A stretch of 32,409 nt of DNA, taken from positions 1 through 32,409 of the forward strand of contig CAOKPU010000038.1 of assembly GCA_948470755.1 (NCBI GenBank), in the 5' to 3' direction. Both the position numbers and the translations under genes were made by a program. A model generated the notes under the pieces. It was not told the DNA's origin. It saw only the letters and a program-made list of their open reading frames with translations, and made no database searches. Origin of the DNA: an uncultured Lachnospiraceae bacterium. Its GTDB lineage: Bacteria; Bacillota; Clostridia; Lachnospirales; Lachnospiraceae. This document shows positions 1,392 through 19,860 of the stretch, piece by piece. How positions within the stretch are numbered: position 1 is the first letter of the stretch; the number at the start of each line of letters is the position of its first letter.

Positions 1392-2780
1392 GTGGCAGTA
1401 AATGAAAAGCTGGTGCAGGACGTGGTAAGGGAAGTAGTTGCCAAACTTCAGATCAATGCTGACGTAAGCGGAAGCAAAGGCGTGTTTGCCGATATGAATG
1501 CGGCGATCGAGGCGGCGAAACGGGCGCAGAAAAAAGTGCAGTCCATGTCCATGGATCAAAGGGAAAAAATTATTACGATTATAAGAAGAAAGACGAAAGA
1601 AAATGCCGAAATCCTTGCACGTATGGGAGTACAGGAAACGGGTATGGGGAATGTAGGGCATAAAATATTGAAACACCATCTGGTAGCGGAAAGGACGCCC
1701 GGCACCGAAGATATTACGACGACGGCCTGGTCGGGGGACAGGGGCCTTACTTTGGTAGAGATGGGGCCTTTTGGAGTTATCGGCGCGATCACTCCGTGTA
1801 CGAACCCGACGGAAACCATTATCTGCAATACCATTGGTATGCTGGCAGGCGGGAATACGGTAGTGTTCAATCCTCATCCGGCGGCAATAAAGACCTCTAT
1901 CTTCGCAGTGAATATGCTCAATGAGGCATCGCTGGAAGCAGGAGGGCCGGATGCAATCGCATGTACGGTAGAAAAACCTACATTGGAAACAAGCGCGGTC
2001 ATGATGAAGCATAAAGATATTTCACTGCTTGTGGCAACCGGAGGCCCCGGGGTGGTAACGGCAGTCCTTTCCTCCGGGAAGAGAGGCATCGGGGCAGGGG
2101 CGGGCAACCCGCCGGCGCTGGTGGATGAAACGGCGGATATCAGAAAAGCGGCGGAAGACATTGTAAACGGATGTACATTTGACAACAACCTTCCCTGCAT
2201 CGCTGAAAAGGAAATCGTGGCGGTGGACAGCGTAGCGGACGAATTGATGCACTATATGGTCAGCGAACAGGGCTGCTATAGGATTGACAAAGAAGAACAG
2301 GATAAGCTGGCCAATGTCGTACTTACGCCGAAGGGGTTGAACCGGAAGTGTGTAGGGAGAAGCGCAAAAGCCCTGCTTGCCATGATAGGGATTGATGTTC
2401 CCGATAATATCCGTTGTATCGTATTTGAAGGCGAGAAAGAGCATCCCCTTATTTCAGAAGAACTGATGATGCCGATCCTGGGAATGGTAAGGGCGAAGGA
2501 TTTTGAGGATGCGGTGGAAAAAGCGGTCTGGCTGGAGCATGGCAACAGGCATTCGGCGCATATCCATTCCAAGAACGTGGATAATATCACCAAGTATGCG
2601 AAAGCGATTGATACGGCTATCCTCGTTAAAAATGCACCTTCCTATGCTGCTTTGGGTTTTGGGGGCGAAGGATACTGCACCTTTACCATTGCCAGCAGGA
2701 CGGGCGAAGGGCTGACGAGCGCCAGCGCATTTACGAAGAGAAGACGTTGTGTTATGTCTGACAGTCTTTGCATCAGATAG
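1392..2780 (+). CDS. pduP: CoA-acylating aldehyde dehydrogenase (PduP-like), BMC cargo
   Basis: Oxidises propionaldehyde with CoA and NAD+ to propionyl-CoA in the compartment lumen. The 462 residues match the PduP/EutE family length. The nucleophile is C269 in FDNNLPCIAEKE; the NAD-binding region contains PFGVIGAITPCTNPTET, and GGPGVV lies near residue 218. The first 20 residues (VNEKLVQDVVREVVAKLQ) form an amphipathic helix like the N-terminal encapsulation peptide of PduP, so the start must lie at the GTG at 1392. The GGAGAAAGGG at 1371-1380 is far from this GTG but ideally spaced for an ATG at 1381 that opens a six-codon frame, ending at the TAA at 1399-1401 and overlapping the GTG. Start may therefore depend on coupling. 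The end overlaps the spacer before the alcohol dehydrogenase, which follows at 2795. Confidence 0.92.
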   Translation: MAVNEKLVQDVVREVVAKLQINADVSGSKGVFADMNAAIEAAKRAQKKVQSMSMDQREKIITIIRRKTKENAEILARMGVQETGMGNVGHKILKHHLVAERTPGTEDITTTAWSGDRGLTLVEMGPFGVIGAITPCTNPTETIICNTIGMLAGGNTVVFNPHPAAIKTSIFAVNMLNEASLEAGGPDAIACTVEKPTLETSAVMMKHKDISLLVATGGPGVVTAVLSSGKRGIGAGAGNPPALVDETADIRKAAEDIVNGCTFDNNLPCIAEKEIVAVDSVADELMHYMVSEQGCYRIDKEEQDKLANVVLTPKGLNRKCVGRSAKALLAMIGIDVPDNIRCIVFEGEKEHPLISEELMMPILGMVRAKDFEDAVEKAVWLEHGNRHSAHIHSKNVDNITKYAKAIDTAILVKNAPSYAALGFGGEGYCTFTIASRTGEGLTSASAFTKRRRCVMSDSLCIR

Positions 2781-2794
2781 GAAAGGGAGAAAAT

Positions 2795-4003
2795 ATGAGC
2801 AATATAAACACAATTGATGTGGAAGCGGTAGTAAAGCAAGTGCTGGAAAGCATGATAGGAAGCGCGCCGGCCGCAAACACAGGAACGTCTGCGGGGCAGA
2901 TACCGAAGACGGCAAGGGTTGCTATGCTGACCGCATTGGAGAAATATGAAGTAAAAGAATTCCCGATTCCGGAAGTGGGGGACGGGGATATCTTGGTAAA
3001 AGTGGAAGGCTGCGGCATCTGCGGCACCGACGCCCACGAATTTAAGAAAGACCCCTTCGGCCTTATACCGGTGGCGTTAGGACATGAGGGTACCGGCGAG
3101 ATCGTAAAAATGGGCAAGGACGTAAAGAAAGACAGTGCGGGGAAACCGTTAAAAGTCGGGGATAAAGTTGTTACTTGTATGATCTTCAAAGATAATCCGG
3201 ATATTACAATGTATGATCTGAACAAACAGAACGTAGGCGGTGCGGACGTATACGGGCTGCTTCCGGATGACGATATCCATTTGAACGGCTGGTTTTCCGA
3301 TTACATATTGATTAGGGAAGGTTCTACGGTTTTCAATGTCAGCGATCTGGATTTGAAATCAAGGATTTTGATCGAGCCTTGCGCCGTATTGGTCCATGCG
3401 GTAGAACGTGCGAAGACGACCGGCATCCTGCGTTTTAACAGCAGGGTAGTCGTACAGGGCTGCGGGCCGATCGGCCTTATCTGCATTGCCGTCCTGCGCA
3501 CTATGGGGATCGAGAATATCGTGGCGGTGGACGGAGAGCAGAAGCGCCTTGATTTTGCAAAAGAAATGGGTGCGGGGAAATCCGTAAATTTCAAAGACCA
3601 TAAAGGCATTGAGGCTTTAACTAAGGCAGTGGAAGATGCATTCGGCGGTTATCCGGCTGATTTCGCATTCCAGTGTACAGGTTCCCCGGCAGCGCACTCT
3701 AATATTTATAAATTTATCCGTAATGGCGGTGGTTTGTGCGAGCTTGGATTCTTTATTAATGGAGGCGATGCGACGATCAACCCTCACTTTGATATCTGCT
3801 CCAAAGAAATCACTACGGTGGGTTCCTGGGTCTATACTTTGAGGGATTATGCAACTACCTTTGATTTCTTAAAGAGGGCGAAGGGGATCGGGCTTCCGAT
3901 GGATAAGCTGATTACCCATGAGTTCCCGTTGGATCAGATTAACGAAGCCCATGTAACGAACCTGAAAATGGAAGGGCTGAAAATAGCGATTATCAATAAG
4001 TAG
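2795..4003 (+). CDS. Zinc-dependent alcohol dehydrogenase, BMC cargo
   Basis: Medium-chain zinc dehydrogenase (402 residues) predicted to reduce propionaldehyde to 1-propanol and recycle NADH inside the BMC; lactaldehyde reduction is an alternative. Catalytic zinc region: C76 in GCGICGTDAHE, then H97-E98 in ALGHEGTGE. The Rossmann motif is VVVQGCGPIG, with a following acidic residue in VAVDGE that fits NAD. The usual four-Cys structural zinc lobe is missing; the sequence goes through DNPDITMYDLNKQNVGG instead. Residues 1-40 are an added helix and linker (IDVEAVVKQVLESMIGS, then Ala/Thr/Gly-rich), which looks like an encapsulation peptide. The ATG at 2795 has GGGAG at 2785-2789. This is not the PduQ iron-type enzyme; a zinc enzyme in this role is known from fucose/rhamnose-type glycyl radical BMC loci. 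Confidence 0.88.
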   Translation: MSNINTIDVEAVVKQVLESMIGSAPAANTGTSAGQIPKTARVAMLTALEKYEVKEFPIPEVGDGDILVKVEGCGICGTDAHEFKKDPFGLIPVALGHEGTGEIVKMGKDVKKDSAGKPLKVGDKVVTCMIFKDNPDITMYDLNKQNVGGADVYGLLPDDDIHLNGWFSDYILIREGSTVFNVSDLDLKSRILIEPCAVLVHAVERAKTTGILRFNSRVVVQGCGPIGLICIAVLRTMGIENIVAVDGEQKRLDFAKEMGAGKSVNFKDHKGIEALTKAVEDAFGGYPADFAFQCTGSPAAHSNIYKFIRNGGGLCELGFFINGGDATINPHFDICSKEITTVGSWVYTLRDYATTFDFLKRAKGIGLPMDKLITHEFPLDQINEAHVTNLKMEGLKIAIINK

Positions 4004-4366: not shown

Positions 4367-4450
4367 TAACATGTATGACATGTAACATGTATGACATGTA
4401 GCATGTATGACATGTAACATGTATGGTATATAACATGAAATACATGTAAC
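4367..4450. repeat. 16-bp tandem repeat array, five units plus a partial sixth
   Basis: Units of consensus TAACATGTATGACATG begin at 4367, 4383, 4399, 4415 and 4431, with TAAC of a sixth at 4447. Units 1 and 2 are identical, unit 3 differs by one base, and units 4 and 5 drift. Each intact unit contains CATGT-ATG-ACATG, an inverted repeat with a three-base centre. The array ends directly against the AGGAGGG ribosome binding site (4451-4457) of the next shell gene. Confidence 0.93.
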
Positions 4451-4464
4451 AGGAGGGTAAGAAG

Positions 4465-4740
4465 ATGACACAGTTGGCTTTGGGCATGATAGAAACGAGA
4501 GGCCTTACGGCGGCTATTGAAGCATCGGATGCGATGATAAAGGCAGCGGAAGTGACATTGATCGGAACGGAAAAAATCGGTTCCGGGCTGGTGACGGTAA
4601 TGGTGCGCGGCGACGTAGGAGCCGTAAAAGCGGCGGTGGAGGCCGGAAGCGTCAGGGCGGCAAGCCTTGGTGAATTAGTAGCTACTCATGTAATACCGAG
4701 ACCTCACAGCGATGTAGAAAAGATTTTACCGCTGATTTAA
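4465..4740 (+). CDS. pduA: BMC-H shell protein, PduA/EutM-like
   Basis: Canonical 91-residue hexameric shell protein, very close in pattern to Salmonella Pdu[21 protein letters not shown], the pore segment [17 protein letters not shown], and the C-terminal [15 protein letters not shown]. Hexamers of this type tile the facets and pass small polar metabolites such as 1,2-propanediol through the GSG pore. AGGAGGG at 4451-4457 gives a strong start. Its upstream leader consists of the 16-bp tandem repeats. It is a near duplicate of the core encoded at 5221-5499. Confidence 0.95.
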
Positions 4741-4764: not shown

Positions 4765-5082
4765 ATGGGAAATGCATATGGGTTCTTTGAGATTCCAAGC
4801 ACGACGGCAGCGATAGACGCTCTCGATATCATGTGCAAGACGGCAGATGTGGAATTTATCACATGGGAGAAAAAGCTGGGCGGCAGACTGGTTACGATAA
4901 TCATACGGGGAAGCGTATCGGATGTAAAACAGGCGATAGAAGCTGCTGCGCATAGCGCGATCAAAAAGCCGGCAGCCACAGTGGTAATTGCCAATCCCCA
5001 TGAAGAAATCATTAAATTGGTGAAAAAGAGCGCCAGCCGGTTGACGAATGTATCAACGGCCTGGAACGACGAAATGGAGTAG
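4765..5082 (+). CDS. BMC-H shell protein, divergent pore (GGR) and C-terminal tail
   Basis: Single BMC domain protein of 105 residues: NAYGFFEIPSTTAAIDALDIM, pore segment KKLGGRLVTIIIRGSVSDV, then ANPHEEIIKLVKKS. The pore motif reads GGR rather than GSG, which would put an Arg near the hexamer opening. About 18 residues follow the fold (ASRLTNVSTAWNDEME), an acidic tail of unknown role. The stop lies only three bases before the next gene start, so the two are probably translationally coupled. Confidence 0.9.
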   Translation: MGNAYGFFEIPSTTAAIDALDIMCKTADVEFITWEKKLGGRLVTIIIRGSVSDVKQAIEAAAHSAIKKPAATVVIANPHEEIIKLVKKSASRLTNVSTAWNDEME

Positions 5083-5085
5083 CAT

Positions 5086-5499
5086 ATGGCGGAAGTAAAA
5101 AACGCGGCAAGGAAAACTCCGGCGAGAGCCGAAGAAAATAAAGCTAAAAAAGCAGAAACAGTGAAAACAGAAACAATAAAACCTGAAACAGTAAAAGCAG
5201 AGCCAAAGGAGGAAAAAAGGATGGCACAGGAAGCATTAGGTATGGTGGAAACAAGAGGTCTGGTAGCATCGATTGAGGCAGCGGATGCAATGTTAAAGGC
5301 AGCAAATGTAACATTAGTTGGAACAGAGAAAATCGGTTCCGGCCTGGTAAGCGTTATGGTGCGCGGCGATGTAGGCGCAGTAAACGCAGCAGTGGAAGCA
5401 GGAAGCGCAAGCGCATCAAGGCTTGGCGAATTAGTGGCTACACACGTAATCCCCAGGCCTCATACGGATGTTGAGAAGATTCTTCCCGTTTTAAAATAA
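5086..5499 (+). CDS. BMC-H shell protein with Lys/Glu-rich N-terminal extension and probable internal start
   Basis: 137 residues. Residues 46-137 are a standard PduA-like hexamer domain ([52 protein letters not shown]). Residues 1-45 are a disordered-looking Lys/Glu/Ala/Thr segment with an ETVK/ETIK repeat. The first ATG at 5086 has only a weak GGAG at 5077-5080 overlapping the stop of the preceding gene. An in-frame ATG at codon 46 (5221) is preceded at ideal spacing by AAAGGAGG (5205-5212), so a 92-residue short form is very likely made as well. The arrangement recalls PduB/PduB', where a long and a short shell protein come from one gene and the extension touches the enzyme core. Here it is on a BMC-H, not a trimer. 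Confidence 0.9.
5205..5223 (+). promoter_or_regulatory. Internal ribosome binding site and alternative start inside the extended BMC-H gene
   Basis: AAAGGAGG at 5205-5212, eight bases before an in-frame ATG at 5221. It is a better site than the one serving the upstream start at 5086. Initiation here yields a normal-length PduA-like protein. Confidence 0.75.
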
Positions 5500-5511: not shown

Positions 5512-5547
5512 AAGATGGGGCGGGCCATGCCCGCCCTTCCATCTTTT
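5512..5547 (+). terminator. Strong intra-operon hairpin, partial terminator or mRNA-stability element
   Basis: Two 7-bp stems stack: AAGATGG (5512-5518) with CCATCTT (5539-5545), and GGCGGGC (5519-5525) with GCCCGCC (5529-5535), with loop CAT and a three-base bulge at 5536-5538. Only TTTT follows, so readthrough to pduL is expected. It would set lower expression for downstream enzymes or protect the shell-gene mRNA. Confidence 0.6.
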
Positions 5548-5570: not shown

Positions 5571-6233
5571 ATGGATAAAAATAGTATGGCTGACAGCCAG
5601 GTAGAGCTGATTGCCAGGATGGTAATGGAAGCAATGAATCAAAAGCAGGATACGGGCAAGGGCTATATGGTTCCGGTAGGCGTATCCGCAAGGCATGTAC
5701 ATTTGACACAGGAGCATGTGGAAGCCCTTTTTGGGGAAGGTTATCATTTGACGAAGAAAAAAGAGCTGATGGGCGGACAGTTTGCATCCAACGAACTGGT
5801 GACGATTGTCGGTTTAAAGCTTAGAGCGATAGAAAATGTAAGGATATTAGGCCCGGTAAGGAAAAAATCCCAAGTGGAGATATCGTCTACCGATGCCATT
5901 AAACTGGGGGTGAAAGCCCCGATCCGCGAGTCAGGCAATGTAGCGGGCAGCGCGCCGATTGCTGTGGTAGGGCCAAAAGGGGCCTTGTACTTGAAGGAAG
6001 GCTGTATTGTTGCCAAAAGGCATATCCATATGTCGCCGAAGGACGCTATGGCGGCGGGGGTTCATGACGGGGATGTAGTATCCGTAAAAGCGGACAACGA
6101 AAGAGGCGCCGTATTTGATCATGTACAGGTCAGGGTAGACGAAAGCTTTACGCTGGAAATGCATATTGATACGGATGAAGCGAATGCAGCGAAGATTGCG
6201 ACAGGGGATACCGTAAGAATCATCAATGGATAG
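5571..6233 (+). CDS. pduL: BMC phosphotransacylase PduL
   Basis: Converts propionyl-CoA and phosphate to propionyl-phosphate, releasing CoA for the aldehyde dehydrogenase. The 220 residues form the two-part PduL fold. Metal-binding histidines are visible as H42 and H44 (SARHVHLT), H151 and H153 (KRHIHMSP) and H198 (EMHIDTDEAN), with E103 likely also involved. Residues 6-24 (MADSQVELIARMVMEAMNQ) form an amphipathic helix followed by a short linker, as expected of the N-terminal encapsulation peptide in BMC-associated PduL. GGAGG lies about ten bases before the ATG. It follows the strong hairpin, so its expression may be lower than that of the shell genes. Confidence 0.95.
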   Translation: MDKNSMADSQVELIARMVMEAMNQKQDTGKGYMVPVGVSARHVHLTQEHVEALFGEGYHLTKKKELMGGQFASNELVTIVGLKLRAIENVRILGPVRKKSQVEISSTDAIKLGVKAPIRESGNVAGSAPIAVVGPKGALYLKEGCIVAKRHIHMSPKDAMAAGVHDGDVVSVKADNERGAVFDHVQVRVDESFTLEMHIDTDEANAAKIATGDTVRIING

Positions 6234-19209: not shown

Positions 19210-19236
19210 GAGGGATCGGCAAAGGTGTTTTATCAT

Positions 19237-19860
19237 ATGAAAATATATAGTGTAGAAGATGCAAGGTTTAAAAAATATGGGAAAATAGTAAAGGGCATTG
19301 ATTTTTCAGGGCTGGTAGAGGCGCTGGAAGAACATACCCCTCTTCCGGAAGGAGTGGAATATGTCCCGGGGCTGGAGATCCTGGAGGCGCTTCCGGTCAG
19401 AAGGGAGCTGGTTTCCAAAAGCTTTGGGGAAATGGAAATCCAGATTGGCTATTGCAATGGACATAATTCTATGCTGAATGCATTGGAATATCATAAAAGT
19501 TCCGAGATTAACGTGGCTGCAACGGATGCAGTCCTGCTGTTAGGAAGTGAGCAGGATATGAAGGATGATTTTACTTATGACACTTCCCTGGCGGAAGCAT
19601 TTTTGCTGCCAAAAGGTACTGCGGTGGAAATTTATGCCACGACGCTTCATTACGCCCCCTGCGGTGTGGGGGATGATGGGTTCAAAGTGGCGATTGTGCT
19701 GCCAAAAGGTACGAATCTGGACTTGGATGATGCACATGCAAAAGGAGAGGATGGCCATCTTACGGCGAAGAACAAATGGCTGCTCGGGCATCCGCAAGGG
19801 AACCTTCCGGAAGGCAGCCCTATGGGGCTGGTAGGGGAAAACTTGTGCGTCAACCGGTAA
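19237..19860 (+). CDS. DUF4867-like protein, sugar-locus associated
   Basis: 207 residues beginning MKIYSVEDARFKKYGKIVKGIDF, which I recognise as DUF4867-like, a family of unknown function often near sugar-use genes in Firmicutes. Segments such as NGHNSMLNALEYHKSSEINVAATDAVLLLGSEQDM and PKGTAVEIYATTLHYAPC suggest a cupin-type beta fold, with H in CNGHN and LHYAPC as possible metal ligands (inference). ATG at 19237 with AAAGG at 19222-19226; an in-frame GTG at 19225 is less likely. It directly precedes the ABC importer genes, so it may process or isomerise the imported sugar. Confidence 0.75.
   Translation: MKIYSVEDARFKKYGKIVKGIDFSGLVEALEEHTPLPEGVEYVPGLEILEALPVRRELVSKSFGEMEIQIGYCNGHNSMLNALEYHKSSEINVAATDAVLLLGSEQDMKDDFTYDTSLAEAFLLPKGTAVEIYATTLHYAPCGVGDDGFKVAIVLPKGTNLDLDDAHAKGEDGHLTAKNKWLLGHPQGNLPEGSPMGLVGENLCVNR

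Follow-up and report, generated by a model that had tools for sequence, protein, structure and literature searches.

A BMC-H shell protein gene with two in-frame starts in a fucose/rhamnose microcompartment locus of a Lachnospiraceae bacterium, and its predicted plain and tailed products

A gene for a hexameric shell protein (BMC-H) in a fucose/rhamnose-type microcompartment locus of an uncultured Lachnospiraceae bacterium carries two in-frame start codons, both of which, judging by their conservation among homologues, are very likely used. Taken as a whole, the reading that we somewhat favour is that the gene would provide an abundant plain tile together with a minority of tiles bearing an N-terminal tail on the exterior of the organelle. 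The window analysed was the whole stretch of 32,409 nucleotides from contig CAOKPU010000038.1 (GenBank assembly GCA_948470755.1), and the features discussed are listed below.

4465..4740, + strand: unextended BMC-H paralogue, 91 aa, 76% identity in the matched part
4765..5082, + strand: preceding BMC-domain gene, 105 aa, stop TAG at 5080–5082
5076..5079, + strand: GGAG, putative Shine–Dalgarno (SD) sequence of the long start, within the 3′ end of the BMC-domain gene before it (sequence)
5086..5499, + strand: long-form BMC-H gene, 137 aa, consisting of a 45-aa extension and a PF00936 domain (translation, Pfam)
5086..5220, + strand: extension, codons 1–45, rich in K/A/E/T and predicted to be disordered (translation, composition, AlphaFold2)
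5148..5201, + strand: 15-bp tandem repeat, 3.6 copies, spanning the ETVK/ETIK units
5205..5212, + strand: AAAGGAGG, putative internal SD sequence, in frame across K41 (AAG), E42 (GAG) and E43 (GAA) (sequence)
5221..5499, + strand: putative short form of the BMC-H protein, 92 aa, beginning at the internal ATG with a canonical PduA-like N terminus (translation, homologues)
5571..6233, + strand: pduL (phosphate propanoyltransferase), the next gene (profile match)

The gene and its two starts

The 137-aa protein matched PF00936 at residues 50–125 (Pfam; E 4.5e-30, 103.9 bits against a cut-off of 24.5). This was the only such stretch in the protein, where a BMC-T protein would have two fused BMC domains, and all 35 members of an alignment picked from the 75 extended homologues described below likewise matched PF00936 only. 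LKAANV and IPRPH in the translation correspond to KAAN and (P/A)RPH, which are described as BMC-H interface motifs (PMC8217296), so that the interface motifs of a basal BMC-H are present. The GGAG precedes ATG5086 with a spacer of 6 nt and AAAGGAGG precedes ATG5221 with a spacer of 8 nt; the calculated duplex energy with the anti-SD sequence was −11.8 kcal/mol for the internal start versus −5.9 kcal/mol for the long start. The initial annotation had described a weak, overlapping long-start site, a strong and well-spaced site before an in-frame ATG at 5221, ETVK/ETIK repeats in the extension and, from these, two in-frame starts on a PduA-like hexamer with the internal one the stronger. Each of these points was borne out at the level of sequence, the GGAG falling within the 3′ end of the BMC-domain gene before it and the repeats lying inside the 15-bp tandem repeat.

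For a chance test, 283 in-frame internal ATGs from 31 genes of the window, delimited by hand, were scored. ATG5221 was the only one preceded by eight matching SD bases at a spacing of 4–11 nt; at least six SD bases were found at 4/283 (ATG5221 counted), and a duplex energy of −11 kcal/mol or lower at 3/283. The single-gene case for an internal start in the window is thus suggestive, and it is the comparative evidence that carries the argument. A crude scan of the + strand between 5000 and 5221 gave no promoter-like match, so a separate short mRNA is without support. The TAG of the preceding BMC-domain gene ends 3 nt before the long ATG and is in frame with it, with a single codon between them (5080–5086); read-through of this stop would therefore fuse two shell proteins.

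The surrounding locus

The locus comprises genes for a class II aldolase, an aldehyde dehydrogenase (AldDH), an alcohol dehydrogenase, BMC proteins, PduL, an EutN/CcmL-type pentamer (BMC-P), PduS-like and PduT-like proteins and a DeoR-type regulator, with FucU, fucose isomerase and an FGGY-family kinase farther along. By this set of enzyme and shell genes, it is a GRM5-like (fucose/rhamnose) microcompartment cluster. An 845-aa glycyl radical enzyme and its activase were found on another contig (C92), and the contig of the locus starts at window base 1. The gene order is close to that given for Cphy_1177–1187 of C. phytofermentans (PMC3557285), from which the window differs by an extra HbpS-like gene and one more BMC gene; the HbpS-like gene (PF03928, 874–1353) lies between those for the aldolase and AldDH, a place where the published list of Cphy_1177–1187 has none.

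Several further features of the locus were recorded. A 16-bp tandem repeat with the consensus TAACATGTATGACATG (5.3 copies, 4367–4451) takes up a large part of the space upstream of the unextended BMC-H gene, and three promoter-like matches fall inside it. A GC-rich hairpin with a T-rich tail is located between the extended BMC-H gene and pduL (5517–5537), and the 90 nt past the stop had a folding z-score of −2 or lower against mononucleotide shuffles at 42 of the 57 extended pre-pduL loci. Such a hairpin could reduce expression of the downstream genes; two numeric columns of Table 1 of Petit 2013 (PMC3557285), taken here as induction, drop from Cphy_1182 to Cphy_1183. A DUF4867 gene (PF16161, E 3e-85, 19225–19860) stands just upstream of transporter-like genes.

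Homologue collection and distribution

Frames matching a BMC core pattern were gathered from 80 loci on genome contigs and from loci returned by genus and family searches, which gave 299 distinct frames, 114 of them before pduL. A frame was called extended if the core was preceded by 30 or more open codons and, at least 25 codons ahead of it, by an ATG with an SD energy of −4 or better. This rule was passed by 77 rows, namely 75 extended BMC-H genes with an internal Met, L061 and one row of another BMC type; L017_5693 (the other BMC type) and L061 (no internal Met) were left out of the counts, and 75 rows, window included, were kept. Their extensions are 27–114 residues long (median 49). The requirement for an ATG plus SD excluded another 20 rows whose open stretch reached 30 codons or more, some of them being unextended copies with chance open frames; the apparent extensions without ATG of L012, L152 and L176 may begin at another start codon. 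The collection is partly biased, as the scan used query peptide patterns (including KAEPKEEK) and long-frame rows were chosen, and the homologues are related rather than independent.

For the family census, 397 genomes of the same family were searched, 117 matched, and the 76 with a best E of 4e-42 or lower were counted, the cut being read off the result table and genomes being matched to loci by hand; the census covers stretches of about 3–5 kb round the matches, so that copies elsewhere would be missed. Within the stretches read, 43/76 genomes had a qualifying extension (ATG, SD, 15 residues or more) and 33/76 lacked the tail, L152 and L176 with their ATG-less long open frames among the latter. 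Beyond the family, a phylum sample (398 genomes, 103 matching; 29 loci from 29 genomes read) and one class (59 genomes, 13 matching; 20 loci, 19 scanned, L219 being a stretch already covered as L202) were included. Extended copies with an internal SD were found there at L184, L185, L202 and L220, which belong to three families (f74, f106 and f72). Over the SD these four have the codons AAG GAG GAA or CAG GAG GTA, and their tails are unlike that of the window in sequence. The L184–L185 pair gave pS 0.40 and pN 0.09 for the tail; for L202–L220 (pS 0.49, pN 0.52), constraint was not detected. As judged from these samples, the trait is common but not universal in the family and is also found in three other families.

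Homologues lacking either the extension or the internal start had been named beforehand as evidence against the two-product reading. Extensionless homologues are indeed common (33/76), so the extension is inessential to such shells; loss of the internal start, the other half of that objection, was hardly encountered, an internal ATG being present in 75 of the 76 extended genes. On a 291-row, poorly resolved tree (12 starred of 254 inner branches), the label extended/unextended changes 20 times, at least four of these changes being forced by starred branches, which suggests that the extension was gained or lost repeatedly.

Conservation of the internal start

Among homologues, extension and internal site were conserved together, a point that the initial annotation had proposed to check, with L061 the sole exception among the extended genes. 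At L061 (about 2570–3610), two unextended tandem copies lie alongside the extended gene, so that the short form could come from a gene of its own in this case. Elsewhere, an internal GGAGG stands in the frame NNG-GAG-GNN in 70/75 rows, the remaining five having AGGAG. The peptide over GGAGG varies (KEE 51, KEV 8, KED 3, REV 3, TEV 2, PEV 1, TEE 1, MEE 1); the residues over the internal SD are thus K/R/T/P/M, then E, then E/V/D, and the bases are constant.

Codon choice was compared at positions counted from the internal Met and not selected on the motif. Glu at −4 (72/75 rows) was encoded by GAG in 72/72 cases versus 132/477 elsewhere in the extensions, and Lys at −5 (65/75 rows) by AAG in 64/65 versus 249/758. 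Among 60 conserved positions of the BMC domain, no codon was fixed (top share 0.96), and of its eight conserved E/K positions seven were mixed (top share 0.65 or lower) and one was GAA in 70/75. In 11 close pairs, the six codons at the end of the extension had changed synonymously at 2 of about 31 sites, versus 127/366 in its remainder (p 6e-4). GC3 after the internal Met is low (0.19 for codons 1–16, then 0.33), after the sole start of 44 unextended pre-pduL genes it is likewise low (0.24–0.25, then 0.41), and after the long Met it stays at 0.34–0.36 with no drop. Per-gene synonymous shuffles, weak singly, reached p<0.05 in 14/75 genes, with a combined p of 3e-17 on related sequences.

Judging from these patterns, joint retention of the two starts goes far beyond the expectation from codon usage, and both are under selection. 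A chance open frame or a chance internal start was rejected on the fixed SD codons, the suppressed synonymous change and the coding-type extension. In 71/75 rows the SD of the internal start is the stronger of the two (the weaker in 3), and in 56/75 the internal site lies in less folded surroundings than the long site; the short form is therefore predicted to exceed the long one.

Coding constraint on the extension and nature of the tail

Pooled over the same 11 close pairs, the extension gave pN 0.107 and pS 0.347, a ratio of 0.31 (Fisher p 2e-24 with sites treated as independent), and the BMC domain a ratio of 0.04; all 12 indels in the long-ORF alignments of these pairs were multiples of three. 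Across eight within-genus sequences, dN/dS was 0.39 in the extension, compared with 0.01 in the domain. Constraint on the tail was absent in two of the closest pairs, with few changes in each (dN/dS 1.61 for the window and L087, 0.97 for L091–L092). The extension shows the substitution pattern of coding sequence, and both frames appear to be translated.

The tails (4193 residues in total) consist largely of K (19.6%), A (17.2%), E (13.1%) and T (11.4%) and are poor in Leu (0.9%) and in F, Y and W (together about 0.2%). Their net charge is positive in 67/75, zero in three and negative in five, ranging from −4 to +12; that of the window tail is +4 and that of the L202 tail, from outside the family, +21. 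This wide variation implies no single electrostatic partner. AlphaFold2, run with an alignment of 35 sequences, placed residues 1–38 at a pLDDT below 50 without secondary structure and most of the domain at about 90; the tail is accordingly predicted to be disordered. A search with the tail alone against solved structures gave no match at E up to 1.

The tails were also scanned for 14-residue proline-free stretches with at least four I/L/V/M/F. The window tail has none, and a role of it as an encapsulation peptide (an amphipathic helix of 15–20 residues plus linker) was rejected for want of a candidate stretch. All six termini of same-operon enzymes that were tested contain one, with helical moments of 0.41–0.71. 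Such a stretch occurs in 25/75 tails, eight of which have a moment of at least 0.41, the lowest control value; compared with composition-matched shuffles, the helical moment was not in excess (6/75 tails at p<0.05).

Discussion

We propose that one gene would give two versions of a major hexameric facet protein of a fucose/rhamnose (GRM5-type) microcompartment. Strong initiation at the internal site would yield an abundant plain tile, and weaker initiation upstream a smaller number of tiles whose Lys/Ala/Glu/Thr tail is hydrophilic and disordered; from the relative strength of the two sites, accumulation of both proteins with the short form in excess is probable. Both termini of the non-permuted BMC-H fold are described as lying on the concave face (PMC5534457), which is called cytosolic (PMC10902431), and in GRM2 particles the convex faces are directed towards the lumen (PMC6971018); the N terminus of PduA is treated as cytoplasmic in a source that also notes contrary, luminal-concave reports (PMC6109187). 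By analogy with these shells, the N terminus of the fold on the concave face places the tails most likely on the outer, cytoplasmic surface, an orientation we hold with fair confidence; they would be sparse there, standing alone or within mixed hexamers. An outward tail might act as a spacer or contact layer by which organelles are held apart, shell overgrowth is limited or a cellular partner is touched, a role to which we give a little less than an even chance. It would not be a cargo clamp.

A clamp of that kind had been put forward in the initial annotation, with the extension as a PduB-like link in which the tail reaches the lumen and ties the shell to the enzyme core. PduB/PduB′, for which shell–core binding is described (PMC9132943), is the closest precedent, the tailed protein is encoded beside cargo genes, luminal concave faces are given in some reports (PMC6109187), and the candidate helix stretches in 25/75 tails, eight with a moment of at least 0.41, would fit; however, an excess of amphipathic helices over shuffles was absent (6/75 at p<0.05), the window tail has no candidate stretch where 6/6 operon enzyme termini have one, Leu and aromatic residues are very scarce in the tails, the published position of the N terminus is on the concave, generally outward face, and the tail is missing in 33/76 genomes within the stretches read. 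Composition, helix tests and published topology thus oppose the claim, and we regard a cargo link as quite unlikely.

Other explanations dispense with one of the two proteins. Translation of the extension could chiefly aid expression, through an A-rich, open approach to the internal start and coupling to the preceding gene, with the long protein a tolerated by-product. The 60 nt before the internal ATG have a median A content of 50%, the internal site is the less folded one in 56/75, the distance from the upstream ORF stop to the long start is between −10 and 20 nt in 50/74, and amino-acid constraint is absent in some close pairs; a leader would, however, hardly account for the pooled pN/pS of 0.31 with 12/12 in-frame indels or for lengths of up to 114 residues with strongly biased composition, and it would not need to be fused in frame to a shell domain, so this account appears unlikely, though less so than the cargo link. 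That only the long protein matters, the internal site being a relic of an ancestral ribosome site, could be imagined from the many unextended genes whose SD coincides in position and frame, an existing start having possibly been swallowed by the extended frame; yet third positions within the SD are fixed (GAG in 72/72) while others vary, synonymous change is suppressed and the GC3 fall after the internal start persists. A relic start was rejected on these three grounds and is considered very improbable. The converse, with only the short protein made and the upstream open frame left untranslated as a leader, draws on the weaker SD of the long start (71/75; only GGAG in the window), but in-frame indels, substitution of the coding type and the 27–114 codons over which the frames, equipped with ATG and SD, stay open all speak against it. 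So does Cphy_1182, whose similarity to PduA is given as restricted to residues 73–161 (PMC3557285), i.e. the gene was annotated long, and with similarity beginning at residue 73 the extension is already annotated in at least one genome. We consider this short-only account scarcely credible.

The plain-and-tailed arrangement preferred here has parallels in known shells. In the Salmonella Pdu system, overlapping genes encode the shell isoforms PduB and PduB′, of which the longer carries a 37-aa N-terminal extension (PMC9132943). The window gene shares this scheme of in-frame starts, each with its own ribosome site, as far as can be read from the DNA. It differs in that PduB is a BMC-T protein (PMC10902431) and the window protein a single-domain BMC-H. 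Residues 1–22 of PduB are a predicted amphipathic helix that acts as a signal sequence (PMC12108088), whereas the window-type tail is variable, disordered, without a helix in the AlphaFold2 extension and probably on the opposite face. Extensions of BMC-H proteins are described as most often C-terminal (PMC8217296); PduK, EutK and CmcE are BMC-H proteins in which a C-terminal extension puts an extra tail on the facet hexamer (PMC12058022), but the window tail is at the other end, and a second start is not reported for them in the passages cited. Cphy_1182 of the C. phytofermentans GRM5 locus occupies the same pre-pduL position, and the text cited on it mentions no second start and leaves the extension undiscussed (PMC3557285). 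L055 (Lachnoclostridium phytofermentans) and L129 have extensions of 71 and 72 aa together with an internal start. CcmM and CsoS2 are Rubisco-binding scaffolds, unlike facet tiles. These two carboxysome proteins are likewise cases of two forms of one microcompartment protein (PMC10902431). In the open-licence literature, no description of a two-start BMC-H and no metabolosome surface-contact or spacing system of the tailed-tile kind was found.

Conclusions

A gene caller that settles on one start overlooks the second product, so both should be covered in searches of proteomes. The two-form trick known from PduB would be extended to a major hexameric tile, in a common bacterial family. For shell engineering, the gene would be a useful instance from nature in which the dose of a tail on a microcompartment shell is titrated, and it may offer a handle on the contacts of the metabolosome outer face. 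Tentatively, and as a possibility that we hold with considerable doubt, many Lachnospiraceae-like bacteria and some other Firmicutes may decorate their fucose/rhamnose organelles with a dosed, fast-evolving, disordered outer brush borne on the main facet tile, for which the two-start gene would be the dosing device.
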